Assembly: GCA_902524805.1 (NCBI GenBank)
Contig: CABZES010000001.1
Location: forward strand, 1 to 64,000
Direction of reading: 5' to 3'
Length of the DNA: 64,000 nucleotides
Source of the DNA: an uncultured SAR86 cluster bacterium
GTDB lineage: Bacteria > Pseudomonadota > Gammaproteobacteria > Magnimaribacterales > AG-339-G14
Under the pieces are notes generated by a model. That model was not told the DNA's origin. It searched no databases and saw only the letters and a list, made by a program, of their open reading frames with translations. Positions 1 to 8,676 of the stretch are shown piece after piece (within the stretch, counting starts at the first letter, position 1; each line of letters begins with the position of its first letter). A program made the translations under genes and the position numbers.

Positions 1-1096
1 CCACTGTGATGGCTTCGGATGATGAGGATTCGGCTCCATTCGAACTAGTAGTGTTGAAATCAACTACTGGAGGATTGTCGTTATCAATAATTGTATAAGT
101 ATGAACGCTGTCACTACCCAAGGTTGCATTGGTAGGACTTGATAAAGTGACGATCACCGTTTCATCTAGTTCGTCCAAAGAGTCATTAACAATGCCGGCA
201 ATACTAATGGAACCGCTGGTTAAACCAGCGTTTATAGTTAAGGAACCATTGGCCAGAGTGTAATCGGTACCCGAGCCAGTCGCGGTGCCAGTTAACGTAT
301 AATTAACAGTTACATTTTGAGTTGATGCAAATGATAAATCTACAGTTAAAGCTGCAGAGGAAACCGATTCAGCTCCATTAGAGCTAGTAATATTAAAATC
401 AACCGTCGGATTGGCTGCTCTAGTAATAACTCGAATAAAGTCACCTGGCTTACCGTTTTTCGCACCAAATCTTAACGTTCTTTTATCAGAGCCAATAGAT
501 ACCCAATCACCGGATGTAGTTGAGGATGTTGTGCTGCTGCCATAATGAACGTGGTTTTCTGTCTGCCTCGCACTAAAACCATTATTTCCCGAGTTTGGAT
601 AGACTGCATCTGATTTATCTACTTCTGGAAAGTCCACGGTCATTGAAGGGTCTGTCCAGTAGCCCAATATTTCGTTATCAAATACTATTTGACCAATCTT
701 TGAGGTTCTATCAGTACCGTTGTTGTGATCGTCGTTGATAAAAACTAAGTAAGAATTAGCTGGAGTATTCCCAAAATGAATCGAAGTTAGGCTTCCAGTT
801 GGTACGTAGCCAAGGCCGCTAAAGTTATAGGTAGTGGTGCATTGAGAGACAGTCTGGCCTTGTTGACAAATATTTGTTCTCTCAGGAACGATTATAAAGT
901 CTTCTCCCGAAGATGATCTTTGGCTACCATTCTTATCTTGTTTTCGAGCTTTTAGATTAGTGGCACCAGGAATAAGTTCTACAAAGGAATTAAAACTTGC
1001 TATCCCATCAGCATGAGCTTGCATAGATTGCAAACCGGCTAGTACTAGAAAAATGCTAATACAAAAAGATCTAAACAAATCTAGCCTTATTTTCAT
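1..1096 (-). CDS. Secreted Calx-beta-domain-like repeat protein, N-terminal part (truncated by window edge)
   Basis: Not in ORF track because it runs off the left edge. Reading minus strand from ATG at 1096 gives MKIRLDLFRSFCISIFLVLAGLQSMQAHADGIASF... (signal peptide), then repeats such as NPTVDFNITSSNGAESVSSAALTVDLSFASTQNVTVNYTLTGTATGSGTDYTLANGSLTINAGLTSGSISIAGIVNDSLDELDETVIVTLSSPTNATLG, typical of Calx-beta repeats. Confidence 0.85.
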   Translation of the reverse strand, partial: MKIRLDLFRSFCISIFLVLAGLQSMQAHADGIASFNSFVELIPGATNLKARKQDKNGSQRSSSGEDFIIVPERTNICQQGQTVSQCTTTYNFSGLGYVPTGSLTSIHFGNTPANSYLVFINDDHNNGTDRTSKIGQIVFDNEILGYWTDPSMTVDFPEVDKSDAVYPNSGNNGFSARQTENHVHYGSSTTSSTTSGDWVSIGSDKRTLRFGAKNGKPGDFIRVITRAANPTVDFNITSSNGAESVSSAALTVDLSFASTQNVTVNYTLTGTATGSGTDYTLANGSLTINAGLTSGSISIAGIVNDSLDELDETVIVTLSSPTNATLGSDSVHTYTIIDNDNPPVVDFNTTSSNGAESSSSEAITV

Positions 1097-1186
1097 TATT
1101 TAAGTAACTTTTCCCCCGAGGGATTTCCGAGCTGAATTATATATAAATTATAAAACTTTATATATTTCTCTTCCCATAAATTTATT

Positions 1187-1873
1187 TTATCGTCGCAGTA
1201 ATATAACGATCCAACGACTGAGGTTTAAAATGTCGGCTAGCGCAGCCGATACATAGGTAAGAGCTGCTGCCCTCAGAATTTGACTTACGGCTTTTTCGTT
1301 TGAATGCGATACATAATTCCCTTCCCTCAATATAGGGAGAGCTTTAGAAAAACTTGCATCAAATTCGATTGGCAGAGTCACCGCGTGAATCATCATACGA
1401 GCTATAAAACCGGATAACCCCAGAAAAAGCAATAATGAAAATGGCATTGGATGCCGCGTAATAATGCCGATCACTGGCGATAAAGATATTATGGCAACAC
1501 TCCAACGGGCCACCTTATCAACAATAGGGACCATCTTTGTTCTAGTAGCAAGACGTTTATCGCCTTGCTGATCCTGGATTGCGTGTCCAACCTCATGCGC
1601 TGCAATAGCAATTGCGGTTAATGATTTAGAATCGTAATGTTCTGGCAAGAGCCTAACCTTTTTTTCAATTGGATCATAATGATCTCCTAACTCAGTTACT
1701 TCTACCTTCACATCTTTTAAAGAGAATCGCTCAATTAAGTGCTTCGCAAGCTCTCCACCTGTGCCGGGAATTTCAGGCTGTTGCGATGAATACCTTCTCA
1801 TAACCAACTTCACCCATAAAGAAGGTCCAAATATCAACGCCAAAACTAAGAGCACTCCTGTCGCTAAAACCAT
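1187..1873 (-). CDS. Membrane zinc metallopeptidase, YugP-like (Zn_peptidase_2)
   Basis: HEVGHAIQDQQG zinc motif, hydrophobic segments, overall YugP-like sequence; RBS-like aaggataat upstream. Confidence 0.85.
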   Translation of the reverse strand: MVLATGVLLVLALIFGPSLWVKLVMRRYSSQQPEIPGTGGELAKHLIERFSLKDVKVEVTELGDHYDPIEKKVRLLPEHYDSKSLTAIAIAAHEVGHAIQDQQGDKRLATRTKMVPIVDKVARWSVAIISLSPVIGIITRHPMPFSLLLFLGLSGFIARMMIHAVTLPIEFDASFSKALPILREGNYVSHSNEKAVSQILRAAALTYVSAALADILNLSRWIVILLRR

Positions 1874-1892: not shown

Positions 1893-2690
1893 TTAACCGT
1901 GTTTTTTTATTAGGTTTACTGCCCACTTTATTACACTCGGATTTTTCTCAATGTCAAGGATGAACTCTTGTCCAAACCCTTTATAGAAGATTTTAGATTC
2001 TTTTTCATTCTCCCACTTCATTCTGTTTAAGAATAGTCCTTCTGTATTTGAAAAATATTTTTGAGGCAGTTTCCATCTAGATCGTGTTTTATATGCTTCA
2101 GTCAAAATTAAATCATTATGTGTCTTTTTGAATAAACCGTGCCCCTTGTCAAAGATTTTTTTTCCATTTATCTCTAAAATTTTCTTACTTATATAAATGG
2201 TATTATTTGAAAATCTAGAGGTGTCTCCATACCCATGAGGATGGGCAATATTCTTTTTTTTGAGATAAGTGGTTATTGCTTTGGGCCCTTCAATTATTTC
2301 TTTTATCTGCAACCATCCAAAAAGATGATGTAGATCTCTTCCCTTAATTGAAAAGTTCTTAAACCATCCAAAGAATAAAAATAAGTCTCCTGGACTTACA
2401 CCATTATTTTTTAATTCTGTTTGTGAAGAGCCTGCTTGACCGAAAATACCAACTTCTTCATTTAGCAGCGGGTCATAATGACAATAATCTGTAGGTTTAA
2501 CCTTGGCAGATACTTCTTTTAATAGCTCTGTACCCGATGTTCCATAAAGGTCTAAATCTTTATATTTTTTAGGTGAGGGGTGGTTTTGAGGAATCGGTAT
2601 AGAAAAGATCCTTCCATCACTAAATATAGGTGATGCACTTCCACCCGCTTTAGCATCAAATCCTTTTCTGCTAAGTATTATTCTTTTCAA
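1893..2690 (-). CDS. Nmad3-like (nucleotide modification associated domain 3) protein
   Basis: N-terminus MKRIILSRKGFDAKAGGSASPIFSDGRIFSIPIP and later HYDPLL, GDLFLFFGWF resemble the Nmad3 family as remembered; not checked by search. Confidence 0.65.
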   Translation of the reverse strand: MKRIILSRKGFDAKAGGSASPIFSDGRIFSIPIPQNHPSPKKYKDLDLYGTSGTELLKEVSAKVKPTDYCHYDPLLNEEVGIFGQAGSSQTELKNNGVSPGDLFLFFGWFKNFSIKGRDLHHLFGWLQIKEIIEGPKAITTYLKKKNIAHPHGYGDTSRFSNNTIYISKKILEINGKKIFDKGHGLFKKTHNDLILTEAYKTRSRWKLPQKYFSNTEGLFLNRMKWENEKESKIFYKGFGQEFILDIEKNPSVIKWAVNLIKKHG

Positions 2691-2720: not shown

Positions 2721-2741
2721 CTACTCCACAGTGACTGACTT
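2721..2741 (-). repeat. glmS 3'-end copy 1 (KSVTVE-stop)
   Basis: Plus strand ctactccacagtgactgactt; reverse complement AAG TCA GTC ACT GTG GAG TAG = K S V T V E stop, the same residues that end glmS at 6850. Confidence 0.85.
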
Positions 2742-2743
2742 GT

Positions 2744-3407
2744 TTTGGGTGTAGGAGTTTAATGTTCATATAACTAAATTAAAACTTGTTTTTTCCAGGT
2801 AATTTACATGTTCCCTTGTGTTCTAAATTTACTTCAAAATCAGGAACCTCTTCATTTGGAAAAATATAAAAAGCGATTTGATTGCTATAAAAACTTCCAG
2901 TTTCTCTATTTATGAATAACTTTTCGGAAACAGAACCCAGATGTACCTCGGAATTAAAATCTTTGCTTAAGAATGAAACATCTTTGTTTCCAAGAGGTTT
3001 GTTAATCCTATTATATTGCCATTCAAAAGAGGCGCTATTTATCTGCATGTCGTCTAGGAGAATCCATTTTGAGGAAAATTTCCTGAAAAAGTATTGATCA
3101 TTAAAAGCAAAATATTGAATCGATTCTCCCCAATCATCTAGTGATTCAAATCCGTTCGGAGAATTGATCTCTTCTGTCTCTGATCCTGTACAAATTAACT
3201 TTATTAAATTTGGTTTTAATTTTTCATAAAGAGAATTTTCTTTTTCAAAAACTGAAATATCTTTATCCGTTATAAGACCAAGAAGATAAAGATCAGGATT
3301 ATCGATAATGTCATTTGTTTGTCCAAAAATATTCATCCCCGTGAGGAAATAAATTATGAGAAAAATGTGAGACAAATTTTTCATTTGGAAAACACCTACA
3401 CCCAAAT
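2744..3407. mobile_element. Putative mini-cassette A bounded by imperfect terminal inverted repeats
   Basis: Left tttgggtgtaggagttt (2744-2760) and right aaacacctacacccaaa (3390-3406) are inverted, 16/17 match; flanked by glmS-tail copies 1 and 2. Confidence 0.7.
2779..3384 (-). CDS. Hypothetical secreted protein (cassette A cargo)
   Basis: ORF track starts at 3456, but that start lies beyond the cassette boundary; internal ATG at 3384 gives MKNLSHIFLIIYFLTGMNIFGQ..., a plausible signal peptide. Confidence 0.6.
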   Translation of the reverse strand: MKNLSHIFLIIYFLTGMNIFGQTNDIIDNPDLYLLGLITDKDISVFEKENSLYEKLKPNLIKLICTGSETEEINSPNGFESLDDWGESIQYFAFNDQYFFRKFSSKWILLDDMQINSASFEWQYNRINKPLGNKDVSFLSKDFNSEVHLGSVSEKLFINRETGSFYSNQIAFYIFPNEEVPDFEVNLEHKGTCKLPGKNKF

Positions 3408-3428
3408 CTACTCCACCGTGACTGATTT
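3408..3428 (-). repeat. glmS 3'-end copy 2 (KSVTVE-stop)
   Basis: Plus strand ctactccaccgtgactgattt; reverse complement AAA TCA GTC ACG GTG GAG TAG. Confidence 0.85.
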
Positions 3429-3429
3429 G

Positions 3430-4628
3430 ATTTGTGTGTGACTGTTTTTTATTCATTTTAAGTTCATGAACCTATTTTTATGATACTCCAAAAAAACTTT
3501 GTCTAATTTGTGCTTTGAGTCTACTGTAAGTTTTTTCCCTTCGAAGTTTTTTAAACCTACTATTTCTAAATTTTCTGGTTCAATATAAAAAGAATAGGCA
3601 TCAAACTGGTCGTGATGATTAGGACATAAACAAAGCATGTTTTCTAGAGTATCGGGTCCATTATGGGGTTTACCTAATCCCTGAATATGTGCGCCGATAG
3701 CAATTCCCATTCCGCCAGGTTTTTCCAAAAAAATTCCGCAAACTTGGCATTTATAATCATAAATATCCTTTATCTTTTCTCTTAAACGAACACTTCGCTG
3801 GACTTTAGTTGTAATTGTCTCTTTTCTTTTTGCAGGCGAATAATCTCTTGGCAGAGTGTCTTGAATATTTTCTTCGATTTCCTGAACAGATTTCTCACTC
3901 TCTAAATGAAATCGACAGATATAGTAACCACTTTTACCCTTTATCCTTTCGTAATCTTTTACGAAAAACAAACCATCATATCTATAACCTTTCTCTGGAC
4001 CGTTTTGAACCTGATATCCTCTTGTTACTCTTACCGGCAAATTATATTCTTTGCTTAAAACCAATCCTTTATTACCTCTTATAAACTCTTGGTCTGATAC
4101 TTGCTTGCCTCCAGGTGAATCCTGACCACCTTGCCCTGTATAAAGAATATAATCGAGTTCATCTACATCATCTTCGTAACCTCCTGATAAGACAATTGAG
4201 CACGCTCCTTCTTTTTCTCTTCCCCAAATTCCATTCATTGGAGGTGTATGAATTCCTGACAAAGAGAGTTCCTCTCTTGATTCAAAGATCTCGCCTTCCT
4301 TTATCCCGGTTATATGACCAAATACAAGGTCAGTATCTTGATTGACCTTCTTAATCATTTTTACTCGGGTTATATCATAGGTTAAGTGATGATGTATCTC
4401 TGAATCGTTCCCTCTATAACCAACTTCATTTGACAATGTGTTTCTATATTCAGAATTTGGTGAATTTATTTCATAAAAAAATTTTCCTTCCTCTCCTATG
4501 AAACTCCATCTTTTTATGTGTTCTTGAGTATGTCTATTTTGATCAATTTCTTTGGAAGTTCTAACAAATTTATCATTATCTTTATATTTCATTTGATTTT
4601 TTAATTCAAAAAACAGTCACACACAAAT
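3430..4628. mobile_element. Putative mini-cassette B bounded by perfect 21-bp terminal inverted repeats
   Basis: atttgtgtgtgactgtttttt (3430-3450) and its exact reverse complement aaaaaacagtcacacacaaat (4608-4628) enclose a single ORF; flanked by glmS-tail copies 2 and 3. Confidence 0.8.
3453..4592 (-). CDS. SRA/YDG-domain HNH endonuclease (type IV-like, modification-dependent restriction candidate)
   Basis: YDG/SRA-like YRYDGLFFVKDYERIKGKSGYYICRFHLE, preceded by GGQDSPGGKQVSDQEFIRGNKGLVLS; C-terminal HNH YDYKCQVCGIFLE...GAHIQGLGKPHNGPDTLENMLCLCPNHHDQFD. Confidence 0.88.
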   Translation of the reverse strand: MKYKDNDKFVRTSKEIDQNRHTQEHIKRWSFIGEEGKFFYEINSPNSEYRNTLSNEVGYRGNDSEIHHHLTYDITRVKMIKKVNQDTDLVFGHITGIKEGEIFESREELSLSGIHTPPMNGIWGREKEGACSIVLSGGYEDDVDELDYILYTGQGGQDSPGGKQVSDQEFIRGNKGLVLSKEYNLPVRVTRGYQVQNGPEKGYRYDGLFFVKDYERIKGKSGYYICRFHLESEKSVQEIEENIQDTLPRDYSPAKRKETITTKVQRSVRLREKIKDIYDYKCQVCGIFLEKPGGMGIAIGAHIQGLGKPHNGPDTLENMLCLCPNHHDQFDAYSFYIEPENLEIVGLKNFEGKKLTVDSKHKLDKVFLEYHKNRFMNLK

Positions 4629-4649
4629 CTATTCCACAGTCACAGACTG
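4629..4649 (-). repeat. glmS 3'-end copy 3 (QSVTVE-stop)
   Basis: Plus strand ctattccacagtcacagactg; reverse complement CAG TCT GTG ACT GTG GAA TAG = Q S V T V E stop. Confidence 0.8.
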
Positions 4650-4676
4650 ATTGAAAGTAGTGATTTAACATGTCAT

Positions 4677-4991
4677 TTATATTTCCTCATCAAGGATATC
4701 TTTAAACTTCTCTCCTGATTCTTTGAAATAATCCCACGATTTTTTATTTGGAAACCTTTCATTATTTTTATAGTACCCTCTACTGAATAATTCTCCATTT
4801 TGATAAAAATATTGCCATGCTCCCTCTTTAAATCCATTAATCCAAGTTCCTACTGCATTCAAAGAACCATTTTTATAATGCTTGTAGTGACCATGCATGA
4901 TTAGTCCGTCTTTTTTTGAATATGCTCTTTCGGGATTGCCTTTCCAAGATATTCCTTCTTCTATAAAGTGTTTCCTTATAAGTTTCTTCAC
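4677..4991 (-). CDS. MORN-variant / YwqK-like repeat protein
   Basis: GLIMHGHYKHYKNGSLNAVGTWINGFKEGAWQYFYQNGELFSRGYYKNN matches the MORN_2/YwqK repeat pattern. Confidence 0.7.
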   Translation of the reverse strand: MKKLIRKHFIEEGISWKGNPERAYSKKDGLIMHGHYKHYKNGSLNAVGTWINGFKEGAWQYFYQNGELFSRGYYKNNERFPNKKSWDYFKESGEKFKDILDEEI

Positions 4992-4994
4992 TAT

Positions 4995-5528
4995 TTAATC
5001 CTTTAAAATGTCGTCTATAATTTTTTTTAAATTTTGGGGGGTTTCTTCAATTTTTTTATCGTGTATTTTTTTCTCTTTTAATGGTTCTGAAGATTCCTTT
5101 TTATCCTCCCAAGGTCTTTCGTATCTGGGATCTTTTGTTGGCGAAAAAACTAACTTGTTATTCCTAAAGTAATCGTCTATGTCATGAAGGAGTTGTATAT
5201 CAATTTTGTTATTACTTCTTGCAACAATTAAAAAAAATAAAATATCTGGGAAGAAAAAAGAACTAATTGCTGGGCAGTGCCCCGAAACAGAATGCATAGA
5301 CCCCATGCCAACCAACTCAAATTCAGTAATTATCTCAGATATGAGTTTAGGGTTAATTTTCCTGAATGTTTCATCATTCCTTAATAAATCACTGAAAGGG
5401 TGATTATTTTGCAAAAAAGAGAAGATTTTTTCGGAAATATTTTTATTATCTGATAGAAGATTTGAATTGTAAGCAGATGTAATATTTTTTATTGCTCTCG
5501 ACTTTTTTATTGAACCCAGAATGCCCAA
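4995..5528 (-). CDS. Hypothetical protein
   Basis: 177-aa ORF co-oriented with neighbours; no recognised domain. Confidence 0.55.
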   Translation of the reverse strand: MGILGSIKKSRAIKNITSAYNSNLLSDNKNISEKIFSFLQNNHPFSDLLRNDETFRKINPKLISEIITEFELVGMGSMHSVSGHCPAISSFFFPDILFFLIVARSNNKIDIQLLHDIDDYFRNNKLVFSPTKDPRYERPWEDKKESSEPLKEKKIHDKKIEETPQNLKKIIDDILKD

Positions 5529-5531
5529 TGT

Positions 5532-5675
5532 TTACAAATAAAAAATTATATAAGGTAATCCGAAAACTAAATACCACACAATTAATTTGGGCATTTCCGA
5601 AGACAAGTCCTGAGATCCTGGGAGAATAAACAGTAATATAGGCAAAATAAGCATAATTACTAAAAAGATTTCCAT
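5532..5675 (-). CDS. Small hydrophobic protein (47 aa), below ORF-track cutoff
   Basis: ATG at 5675 gives MEIFLVIMLILPILLFILPGSQDLSSEMPKLIVWYLVFGLPYIIFYL-stop; two hydrophobic segments, fills the gap between flanking ORFs. Confidence 0.4.
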   Translation of the reverse strand: MEIFLVIMLILPILLFILPGSQDLSSEMPKLIVWYLVFGLPYIIFYL

Positions 5676-5696
5676 TGCGTATATTAACTAAAAAAT

Positions 5697-5990
5697 TTAA
5701 TTACTTTCAATCCTTAATTCAAAATCTTTTATTACGAATCTAGTGGGAATCTCAAAATATTTTGAGAACATGTTCCATGCTTCTTTTTGAGATTTAAATT
5801 TTATTTTGCTGCCCATGCCACCACGAGACCATCCCATCCCAGTTATTTTTGCGCCCTCCTTGTCAGAAAAATCTATAAAAACGTAAGTGTGAACGCTGGT
5901 AGTAAAACAGAAAATTATTTTATCAGGGTCTGGTTCTCCCTTTTCCCAATGAAATTGATTAAAAACATAAAGTTCAGATGGTTTTGACAT
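5697..5990 (-). CDS. Hypothetical protein
   Basis: 97-aa ORF within cassette C; no recognised domain. Confidence 0.5.
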   Translation of the reverse strand: MSKPSELYVFNQFHWEKGEPDPDKIIFCFTTSVHTYVFIDFSDKEGAKITGMGWSRGGMGSKIKFKSQKEAWNMFSKYFEIPTRFVIKDFELRIESN

Positions 5991-6096
5991 GTTGCCTCCA
6001 TTAATTGTTGATTAACCGCATCATTTTTCCACCTTGCCGGAGTGGGCAGGTTGGAGAGGAATTTAATCCTGCTCTTGATACAAAATTTATTATACT

Positions 6097-6453
6097 TTAT
6101 TTTTTTAGAAAATTTGATACAAAATCATCGCAAATTTTTGCTACTGCTTGCGCATCTTCGTCATTAAAACTTTTGTCTGGTCTGTTTTCATAGTTGTTGC
6201 AAAATGTTTCACAAGCGTCGCTAGAACAGAATGCTGTAACGCTAAGATTAAGTAGGCGTAAAATTTCGTTTGAAGGAATTATTTTTTGCTGGTTTAAGAC
6301 CGATCTACAAATAGAATTAATTTCTTCATCTGTGGCAACTCTGCTGTTCTCAGATTCCCATTTTCTAAGGTGATTTCCTGCCTGAAAAACTAAAGCGTAT
6401 TGAAGGACATTATAAGACCCAAACAATTCTTGGACACTTAGTTCTCTACTCAT
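6097..6453 (-). CDS. Hypothetical protein
   Basis: 118-aa ORF within cassette C; no recognised domain. Confidence 0.5.
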   Translation of the reverse strand: MSRELSVQELFGSYNVLQYALVFQAGNHLRKWESENSRVATDEEINSICRSVLNQQKIIPSNEILRLLNLSVTAFCSSDACETFCNNYENRPDKSFNDEDAQAVAKICDDFVSNFLKK

Positions 6454-6511
6454 AACTACTTCGACTTCAAGGAAGTTTTAAAATAATGCATCTTCATATT
6501 TTTATACTACA

Positions 6512-6838
6512 TTATTTAATAATCAATTTGAATTTTCCCAATCTACTACGATATTTCTTATTTCGAATTTGCTGATATCGTTCATCTCGTTCAGAAAATC
6601 TTTTCAAGATTGCATGTACATGATTATTTTTGAAGTCTTTATTTGTATGAGTTTTTATTCCAGAAACATTTAACCAATTTGCAATTCTTCGATAACCCAG
6701 ACCTTCGCGTTTAAGGGTTCTGATTATTTTTAAGAGAATAAATTGTCGTTTTGAAATTTCTTTTTCCCAAGTCAGATTATTGCTTCGACAATAAAGTTTA
6801 AAAACTAGATAGTGATGTTTTTTGAGTGATGTTAAATC
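6512..6838 (-). pseudogene. Recombinase C-terminal-like ORF without a canonical start codon
   Basis: Minus-strand reading gives SLKKHHYLVFKLYCRSNNLTWEKEISKRQFILLKIIRTLKREGLGYRRIANWLNVSGIKTHTNKDFKNNHVHAILKRFSERDERYQQIRNKKYRSRLGKFKLIIK-stop. The G-Y-R-I-A-x-x-L-N-x-x-G-I-x-T pattern resembles serine recombinase C-terminal regions. No ATG/GTG/TTG upstream in frame before an in-frame stop inside glmS. Confidence 0.45.
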
Positions 6839-6849
6839 ACTACTTTCGC

Positions 6850-8676
6850 CTACTCTACCGTAACGGACTTAGCTAAGTTTCTTGGTTGATCGATATCTGT
6901 GCCTCTGATCAGAGCTACCTCGTAAGACAATATTTGCAGCGGGATAGTATAAAGAATTGGCGTTAATAAAAAGTCACATTTTGGCATGGTCATTAACTTG
7001 CCAGAATCGATTTGCATATTGCTAGATGCATCTCCAAAAACGTACAAAGTCCCGCTCCTTGCTTTTACTTCCTCCAAGTTTGAAATAAGTTTTTCGGCCA
7101 ATTCGCTTTCTGGAGCAAGCGCCACGACAGGCATATTCTCATCAATCAATGCTAGTGGTCCGTGTTTTAACTCGCCTGCTGGATAAGCTTCAGCATGAAT
7201 ATAAGAAATTTCTTTTAACTTTAATGCTCCTTCTTTAGCGATTGGATAAAACATACCGCGTCCAAGAAAAAGAGCATTGTCTTTTTCTGCAATTTTGGGC
7301 GAAATCTCTTGAATTTCTTTTTTTAGTTTTAAAGATTCTTCAACAATCTCAGGCAATGCTCTTAAAGCTGTAACAATTCTTGTTCTAAGTTTGGGATTAA
7401 CATTTTTTGCCTTGGCAATCGACATTGCCAACATCATCAATGCGACTAACTGAGTTGTAAAAGCTTTGGTAGAAGCAACACCTATTTCTGGACCAGCATT
7501 AGTGAGTAAGAGAAAATCAGATTCTCTAGCAATGGAGCTGGTTGGTACGTTGCAAATAGTTAAGGAGCCTAAGTAGCTTTGATTTTTTGCATGCCTCAAA
7601 GAAGTCAATGTATCCGCAGTCTCGCCAGATTGAGAAATAGTTACTAGCAAAGTATTTTCATCAATATAAGGATTTTTGTATGTATATTCACTCGCAAAAT
7701 CTATTTGCGTTGGTACTTGAGAAATTGCTGAAAACCAGTTTGCCGCAACTCTGCCTGCATGCAAGCTAGTGCCAGCAGCGACAATTTGGATTCTTTTTAC
7801 TTCCGCTAGCAACTTTGAAGAGCCTTCTCCGAAAATATTCTCTAAAACGTCTTCGCCACCGATTCTTCCATCTAAGGTATTTCTGATGGCTTGAGGTTGT
7901 TCGTAAATCTCCTTTTCCATGAAATGCTTATAATTCCCTTTTGAAGTCGTCTCAGCAGAAATATCAATTTTTGTGACATTTCTTTCAACAGCTTTTTGAT
8001 TTTCATCAAAGATTTCTAAGCCTGATGCCGAGACTGCTGCTGTGTCTCCATCTTCCAAAAAAATAAACTGATTTGTTAATTCGCCAATTGCCAAAGGATC
8101 TGAAGCAGCAAAATACTCATCTTTCCCCAAACCTAAAAGCAAAGGAGATTTGTTTCTGGCTAAATAAAAATAATTTGAGTCTTCCTTATCTATTGCTGCA
8201 ATTGCGTAGGCTCCCTCAAGACTAGTTTTAAGCGCCTGCATGCCTTCAATCATACTTTTGCCATCATTTAGAAAACTATCAATAAGGTGAGCTATCAATT
8301 CTGAATCCGTTTGAGACTGAAATAAATAACCTTTTTTTGATAAAGCAGCTTTCAAAGCTAAATAGTTTTCAATGATGCCGTTGTGCACAATAAACACTCT
8401 ATTTTTTGACGAATGAGGATGGGCATTTGATTCAGAAGGCTCGCCATGAGTTGCCCATCGAGTGTGCGCAATGCCTACTTTGCCTTTCGGCTTTTCTTGT
8501 ATCATTCTTTCTTCGAGCAAATTGACTTTCCCGAGCGTTCTTAAATGTGCAACACCATCCTCTTGGTGCAAAGCAATACCCGCCGAGTCATAACCTCGGT
8601 ACTCCATTTTATGAAGCCCCTGAACTAGAAGTTTTCCGACACTTCTGTCAGTAGCTGCTGCAATTATTCCGCACAT
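6850..8676 (-). CDS. glmS: Glutamine--fructose-6-phosphate aminotransferase (isomerizing)
   Basis: MCGIIAAATDRSVG, SIS domains, C-terminus DQPRNLAKSVTVE. Confidence 0.98.
   Translation of the reverse strand: MCGIIAAATDRSVGKLLVQGLHKMEYRGYDSAGIALHQEDGVAHLRTLGKVNLLEERMIQEKPKGKVGIAHTRWATHGEPSESNAHPHSSKNRVFIVHNGIIENYLALKAALSKKGYLFQSQTDSELIAHLIDSFLNDGKSMIEGMQALKTSLEGAYAIAAIDKEDSNYFYLARNKSPLLLGLGKDEYFAASDPLAIGELTNQFIFLEDGDTAAVSASGLEIFDENQKAVERNVTKIDISAETTSKGNYKHFMEKEIYEQPQAIRNTLDGRIGGEDVLENIFGEGSSKLLAEVKRIQIVAAGTSLHAGRVAANWFSAISQVPTQIDFASEYTYKNPYIDENTLLVTISQSGETADTLTSLRHAKNQSYLGSLTICNVPTSSIARESDFLLLTNAGPEIGVASTKAFTTQLVALMMLAMSIAKAKNVNPKLRTRIVTALRALPEIVEESLKLKKEIQEISPKIAEKDNALFLGRGMFYPIAKEGALKLKEISYIHAEAYPAGELKHGPLALIDENMPVVALAPESELAEKLISNLEEVKARSGTLYVFGDASSNMQIDSGKLMTMPKCDFLLTPILYTIPLQILSYEVALIRGTDIDQPRNLAKSVTVE

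Follow-up and report, generated by a model that had tools for sequence, protein, structure and literature searches.

A tandem cassette array behind glmS

Within the window (the whole 64,000-nucleotide stretch of DNA that was analyzed), three tandem cassettes, here called A, B, and C, lie between glmS (6850-8676, reverse strand; an ORF with a 100% self match and a tail sequence conserved across glmS loci) and a conserved metallopeptidase gene, Zn_peptidase_2 (1187-1873, reverse strand), which forms the far flank of the array and is conserved backbone in relatives. Between neighboring cassettes stands a repeat of the final codons of glmS (core ANTCNGTNACNGTNGARTR), which always points the same way as glmS, and these codons (KSVTVE*) are the integration target. 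This 19-nt core, the flanking glmS tail of the preliminary description, occurs four times, each time on the reverse strand—core 1 (AGTCCGTTACGGTAGAGTA, 6851-6869) is the coding end of glmS and the left boundary of cassette C, core 2 (AGTCTGTGACTGTGGAATA, 4630-4648) parts C from B, core 3 (AATCAGTCACGGTGGAGTA, 3409-3427) parts B from A, and core 4 (AGTCAGTCACTGTGGAGTA, 2722-2740) is the last recognizable copy. A search of the organism's own genome assembly, which is 80% complete, found no fifth core beyond these four.

Measured between the central AC dinucleotides of successive cores, and all on the reverse strand, cassette C spans 2221 bp (4640-6860), cassette B 1221 bp (3419-4639), and cassette A 687 bp (2732-3418). 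Each has its own arms: GAAAGTAGTGATTTAAC in C (4653-4669, inverted at 6831-6847), ATTTGTGTGTGACTGTTTTTT in B, and the TTTTGGGTGTAGG type in A (inverted repeat 2737-2760/3390-3413). Cassette A holds a single ORF (2779-3384) to which no function could be assigned, and cassette C carries an ORF with a helix-turn-helix (HTH) resembling a recombinase domain, three ORFs without a Pfam match, and a MORN_2-like ORF. Beyond core 4, an Nmad3 gene (1893-2690, reverse strand) is preceded by a left arm, TCTTCAGGTGGAGTTTTT, with no recognizable right core; because it also adjoins the Zn-peptidase gene in the further members of its genus that were examined, it is probably an older or fixed resident. At the edge of the window (1-1098, reverse strand), a large repetitive adhesin-like ORF, called by eye and open at the window edge, adjoins the array.

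A restriction-like gene as a minimal cassette

Cassette B is nearly all gene. Its 379-aa ORF (3453-4592, reverse strand) combines an SRA domain and an HNH nuclease domain (Pfam SAD_SRA, E 2.8e-44; HNH_2, 1.6e-10), and it sits 2 bp and 15 bp inside two arms (ATTTGTGTGTGACTG) that form a perfect 21-bp inverted repeat, with the glmS-distal arm ATTTGTGTGTGACTGTTTTTT at 3430-3450 on the forward strand and the glmS-proximal arm, its exact reverse complement, at 4608-4628 on the reverse strand. At up to three mismatches, the arm has only these two matches in the window, where 100 shuffles gave an expectation of 0. The preliminary description was thus accurate about the repeat, the spacing, and the SRA-HNH identity, and its picture of a separate unit that has ends, consists almost entirely of one gene, and lacks a mobility gene is supported. 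The boundaries it gave, 3430-4628, are correct for the repeats and slightly short for the unit, which apparently runs from the central AC at 3418/3419 to that of the next core at 4639/4640.

The protein aligns over residues 90-378 with TagI (PDB 6ghs; E 6.7e-54), in which the SRA domain likewise precedes the HNH domain, and from this alignment a type IV restriction enzyme of the TagI type, with modified DNA as its substrate, is the most likely assignment; the protein differs from TagI in an additional N-terminal segment of about 85 residues and in being carried as a glmS cassette. Among named genomes, the sole match was a 39% identical protein from Streptomyces, and no close relative was found. 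The preliminary description named homologues at unrelated loci, without conserved ends, as the pattern that would speak against it; instead, the order has three homologues (58-65% identity), each inside a cassette bounded by cores; those of G054 and G080 trace directly to glmS, the third (G133) is on a contig that breaks before glmS, and the arms of all three are unlike those of cassette B. The search for the 21-bp end in other genomes that it had proposed returned one 20/21 match, in another genus and beside a different cassette. As a separate observation, the N-terminal part of the protein (4335-4592, reverse strand; about 80 residues) matches parts of some eleven otherwise different proteins in the order.

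Cassette arrays across the order

We took the regions that follow glmS in about 70 related genomes and limited the count to the 67 loci longer than 3 kb; these genomes are largely draft assemblies, in which contig breaks hide parts of arrays. All 126 additional cores were on the glmS strand, with none on the opposite one, and all but one (125/126) lay within 8 kb of glmS; by comparison, one shuffled copy of all loci yielded one match. At least one additional core was present in 53 of the 67 loci, and some loci had five. Outside the order, core arrays were not seen in 369 genomes of the class, which showed just the glmS tail or isolated copies. The cassette array is a property of the order, and cassette B, presented in the preliminary description as a stand-alone mini-element with fixed ends, is instead one cassette in a tandem array, in which the ends are specific to the cassette and the glmS-tail core is what stays invariant. 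The host is probably SAR86-like, judging by a genome of 1.0-1.4 Mb, a GC content of 35%, and a gammaproteobacterial arrangement of genes. A search of the open-access literature found no report of such arrays at glmS or in SAR86.

The organization of these arrays is integron-like, as the cassettes are co-directional, mostly single-gene, and diverse: 182 ORFs in cassette intervals run with glmS and 39 against it, and the median interval is 626 bp. This bias (182/221), together with the gap of only 15 bp between arm and start in cassette B, makes read-through expression likely, so cassette genes are probably read from upstream transcription. Cargo is highly varied, with 93 Pfam families among 108 ORFs across the order, and elsewhere includes restriction-modification genes, HNH nucleases, methionine sulfoxide reductases, an ion channel, a desaturase, small membrane proteins, and many unknowns. 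Given this diversity, the label of "defense cassette" that the SRA-HNH unit had received fits cassette B and not the system to which it belongs.

An attachment site with symmetric arms

Across 155 intervals, the two arms of a cassette show complementarity about a single axis, which falls between the A and the C of the central AC; this complementarity is confined to 11-29 bp on each side of this center, and shifting the axis by half a base abolishes the signal. At least 13 of 19 arm positions were complementary in 69 of the 155 intervals, as against 4% of mismatched-pair controls, and none of 1000 permutations reached the observed mean. Clearly matching arms survive in under half of the intervals, and in many intervals the arms have decayed. 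Arms that meet at one junction, by contrast, are complementary in just 6 of 154 cases, which distinguishes these junctions from integron attC sites.

In a circularized cassette, the two arms flank a single core and form a site of about 58 bp that is symmetric about the invariant AC. This size, together with dyad symmetry and a central dinucleotide that is invariant and not a palindrome, is typical of large serine recombinase sites. The att sites of the ECC elements, at about 50 bp, likewise have inverted repeats in the circular form (PMC6222049).

Movement of whole cassettes between genomes

Cassettes shared by different genomes are 92.8-98.4% identical from AC to AC, with 150-bp flanks that are mostly unrelated. 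For example, a 511-bp cassette found in two families of the order is 98.2% identical from AC to AC between G010 and G043, with no relation between the flanking 150 bp at either end. Another cassette, of 538 bp, was present in 21 of 204 genomes, either entire or as its gene body; in copies that retain the left arm, the constant sequence begins right after the AC in varied contexts, including directly behind glmS. At 26 shared left boundaries with different neighbors, variable positions to the left of the AC match in 15-23% of pairs, and at 30 shared right boundaries those to the right match in 33-63%, although the pairs are not independent; agreement beyond the AC is thus lost on the left side and largely lost on the right. 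One genus offers an empty site (G024) beside a filled one (G021), and there the cores are chimeric, a host half joining a cassette half at the AC.

Because sequence linkage switches at the central AC, these comparisons indicate that cassettes move by conservative site-specific recombination and not by transposition. The exchange region could be somewhat wider than 2 bp, since positions 2-5 bp from the AC sometimes differ between otherwise near-identical copies.

These boundaries bear directly on targeted transposition. Tn7 classically targets the 3' end of glmS, and a Tn7-like transposon drawn there by glmS would leave tails as target-site duplications and inverted repeats, such as those bounding cassette B, as transposon ends. 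What the cassettes share with Tn7 is the landing place; the recombination mechanism, the ends, and the insertion point differ. Where such a transposon should show unchanging terminal repeats and a short duplicated target, the ends vary from cassette to cassette inside one array, the cores are half host and half cassette and are not duplicated (including in the empty and filled pair), and insertion takes place inside the final codons of glmS, not past its stop. No tnsABCD gene was noticed among the cassettes of the window. We regard this explanation as highly improbable.

The same data speak to the age of the system. Were the array an old, immobile relic of a long-ago acquisition, with the repeats as remnants, one would understand the decayed arms in many intervals, the absence of near-identical copies of cassettes A, B, and C from the other arrays examined, and the state of Nmad3, short of its right core and found beside the Zn-peptidase gene in the further members of its genus that were examined. 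Against this stand whole cassettes 96-99% identical between families among unrelated neighbors, and the arms of cassette B, which still form a perfect 21-bp repeat, so that we think a relic very unlikely and read the array as mobile.

One observation goes beyond a simple cassette model: the gene body of a 128-aa membrane protein recurs with at least three left ends and at least three right ends, as if arms could be swapped around a fixed gene body. Such exchanged ends on one gene body are unexplained by that model.

A recombinase with the same site design

Cassettes A-C contain no catalytic recombinase gene, and the organism's own genome (assembly 80% complete) showed no large serine recombinase gene. 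Serine recombinases were found in seven of 204 genomes of the order, one of these below the family cut-off, and only one, in genome G171, is linked to glmS. There, a 6.05-kb element lies right behind glmS with a core at both ends and symmetric arms (AGTTTAGTCGGTCTTTC / GAAAGACCGATTAAACT), and it carries the gene for a 551-aa protein that combines Resolvase, Recombinase, and Zn-ribbon domains, as well as a gene for an HUH Rep-like protein and a small HTH ORF. Arms of the G171 type also occur without a recombinase—both of them on a 1.3-kb cassette in another genome of the same genus (G167), which carries one HNH-nuclease-like gene (called by eye), both in G047, and the left one in G090, which belongs to another family. 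The strongest argument for mobilization in trans of minimal, single-gene cassettes comes from these recombinase-free examples. The proposal that the SRA-HNH unit is itself trans-mobilized is accordingly probable, with the enzyme acting on cassette B presumed to be of this kind; a recombinase with the arms of cassette B was not found among the 204 genomes.

The HUH Rep-like protein of the G171 element (REP_ORF2-G2P; reverse complement of 6347-6808 in its locus) suggests a replicative or phage- or plasmid-like circular stage. In cassette C, the HTH frame (6511-6850, reverse strand) resembles the "Recombinase" domain (PF07508) on its own, without a catalytic domain; it is open through the arm and the core and has no ATG, GTG, or TTG start upstream of the HTH. 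No homology was found between this ORF and the G171 recombinase, and its type is at most weakly similar to the small HTH protein that the G171 element encodes (E 0.008, tested with a relative from another locus, L106). Similar HTH ORFs open the first cassette in seven loci of other genomes.

Other recombinases were considered and set aside. The large serine recombinases of G047 and G050 lie away from any core, and tRNA targets are suggested by their C-termini. In L117 (9636-11213) and L118 (322-1881), a related pair of such enzymes has C-termini like translated tRNA ends and probably belongs to tRNA-targeting elements unrelated to glmS. Additional tyrosine recombinases (PF00589) in 15 genomes are not at glmS, and exploitation of Xer was rejected as the preferred explanation on the grounds that the core is unlike dif (by eye) and the arms vary.

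The most substantial competing explanation accepts site-specific recombination at the core and assigns it to a tyrosine recombinase, either Xer or an integrase like those of integrons or of the strand-biased circularizing integrative elements (SEs) of Vibrio. XerC/XerD-type genes occur in 100 of 101 genomes, while serine recombinases are rare, and the variation 2-5 bp from the AC is compatible with an exchanged region of 6-8 bp. The Vibrio SEs, which are marine and site-selective, have inverted end repeats of about 19 bp and an attB target without inverted repeats (PMC9345347), but they use tyrosine recombinases, measure 7-41 kb, and have a 6-bp crossover region. The window cores (GTTACGGT, GTGACTGT, GTCACGGT, GTCACTGT) differ within the 8 bp around the AC, so that one array offers no fully matched overlap, and a symmetric site of about 58 bp is large for a tyrosine core site. 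PF00589 gives about two matches per genome, none of them near glmS among the matches listed, and the sole recombinase-bearing element found at the site encodes a serine recombinase. A tyrosine enzyme is on balance unlikely, though less so than transposition or a relic, and we favor a serine recombinase.

Integron-like organization with probable SCC-like chemistry

The nearest precedents for such a recombinase are the staphylococcal and enterococcal cassette chromosomes (the SCCmec/ECC elements), in which a large serine recombinase acts at the 3' end of a conserved gene on att sites of about 50 bp with a conserved center, inverted repeats give the circular att site its dyad symmetry, and composite islands carry more than one att site (PMC6222049). 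The glmS cassettes share with them direct-repeat att cores and dyad-symmetric arms in the circular site. They differ in target (the 3' end of glmS rather than of rlmH), in size (mostly single genes of 0.2-2 kb, as against tens of kb), in the stacking of up to five or more units whose neighbors have different arms, and in the recombinase gene, which lies inside the element in SCC/ECC and is almost always absent from glmS cassettes, the G171 element being an exception.

In layout, the arrays recall integron cassettes and CALINs, which are tandem, co-directional, mostly single-gene, and diverse, and whose recombinase-free arrays depend on an enzyme acting in trans (reviewed in PMC11389934). In contrast to integrons, the glmS cassette junction is not palindromic and shows no attC by arm comparison, with symmetry arising in the circle only; no integron integrase was found at the locus, and the anchor is the end of a housekeeping gene rather than an attI. 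Lacking defining features of both integron and SCC, the array should not be filed as either, and the sequences point to a system that is integron-like in organization and SCC/ECC-like in recombination chemistry.

We therefore propose, with a probability of roughly 80%, that this is an integron-like cassette array at the 3' end of glmS that is mobilized in trans by an SCC-like serine recombinase. A cassette would travel as a circle with one attachment site of about 58 bp, the core lying between its own inverted arms, and a large serine recombinase, coming from a related element or a helper, would join this site to the glmS core or to any core of the array. Crossover at the central AC would keep the coding end of glmS intact, and, as AC is not palindromic, every cassette would be inserted in the direction of glmS. 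Repeated insertions would stack cassettes and displace older ones, and upstream transcription would probably read the newly placed gene. With clearly less assurance, judging it only slightly better than an even bet, we extend this proposal to an order-wide integron-like system built on large serine recombinases with a glmS anchor, in which a family of recombinases would have arm specificities for each class of cassette, and recombinase-free cassettes, restriction enzymes included, would be traded between families.

The textbook example of a platform on which single-gene cassettes are stacked is the integron. If our reading is true, the glmS arrays are a second platform with the same logic, another recombinase chemistry, and a housekeeping anchor, and cassette arrays evolved more than once; they would also explain where some streamlined, small-genome bacteria hold and trade accessory genes. 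Restriction enzymes carried as 1.2-kb cassettes would offer a concrete route for the spread of defense genes in genomes with few other mobile elements, and the short, coding-compatible glmS core with its modular arms would amount to a ready-made family of serine-recombinase sites.

A final observation concerns the native sequence past the glmS stop in five loci (around position 300), where AAGAAAGATTTCTCGGTTGGTC is an inverted copy, with a one-base offset, of the glmS coding DNA just upstream of the core; this inverted copy is possibly the original attB arm.
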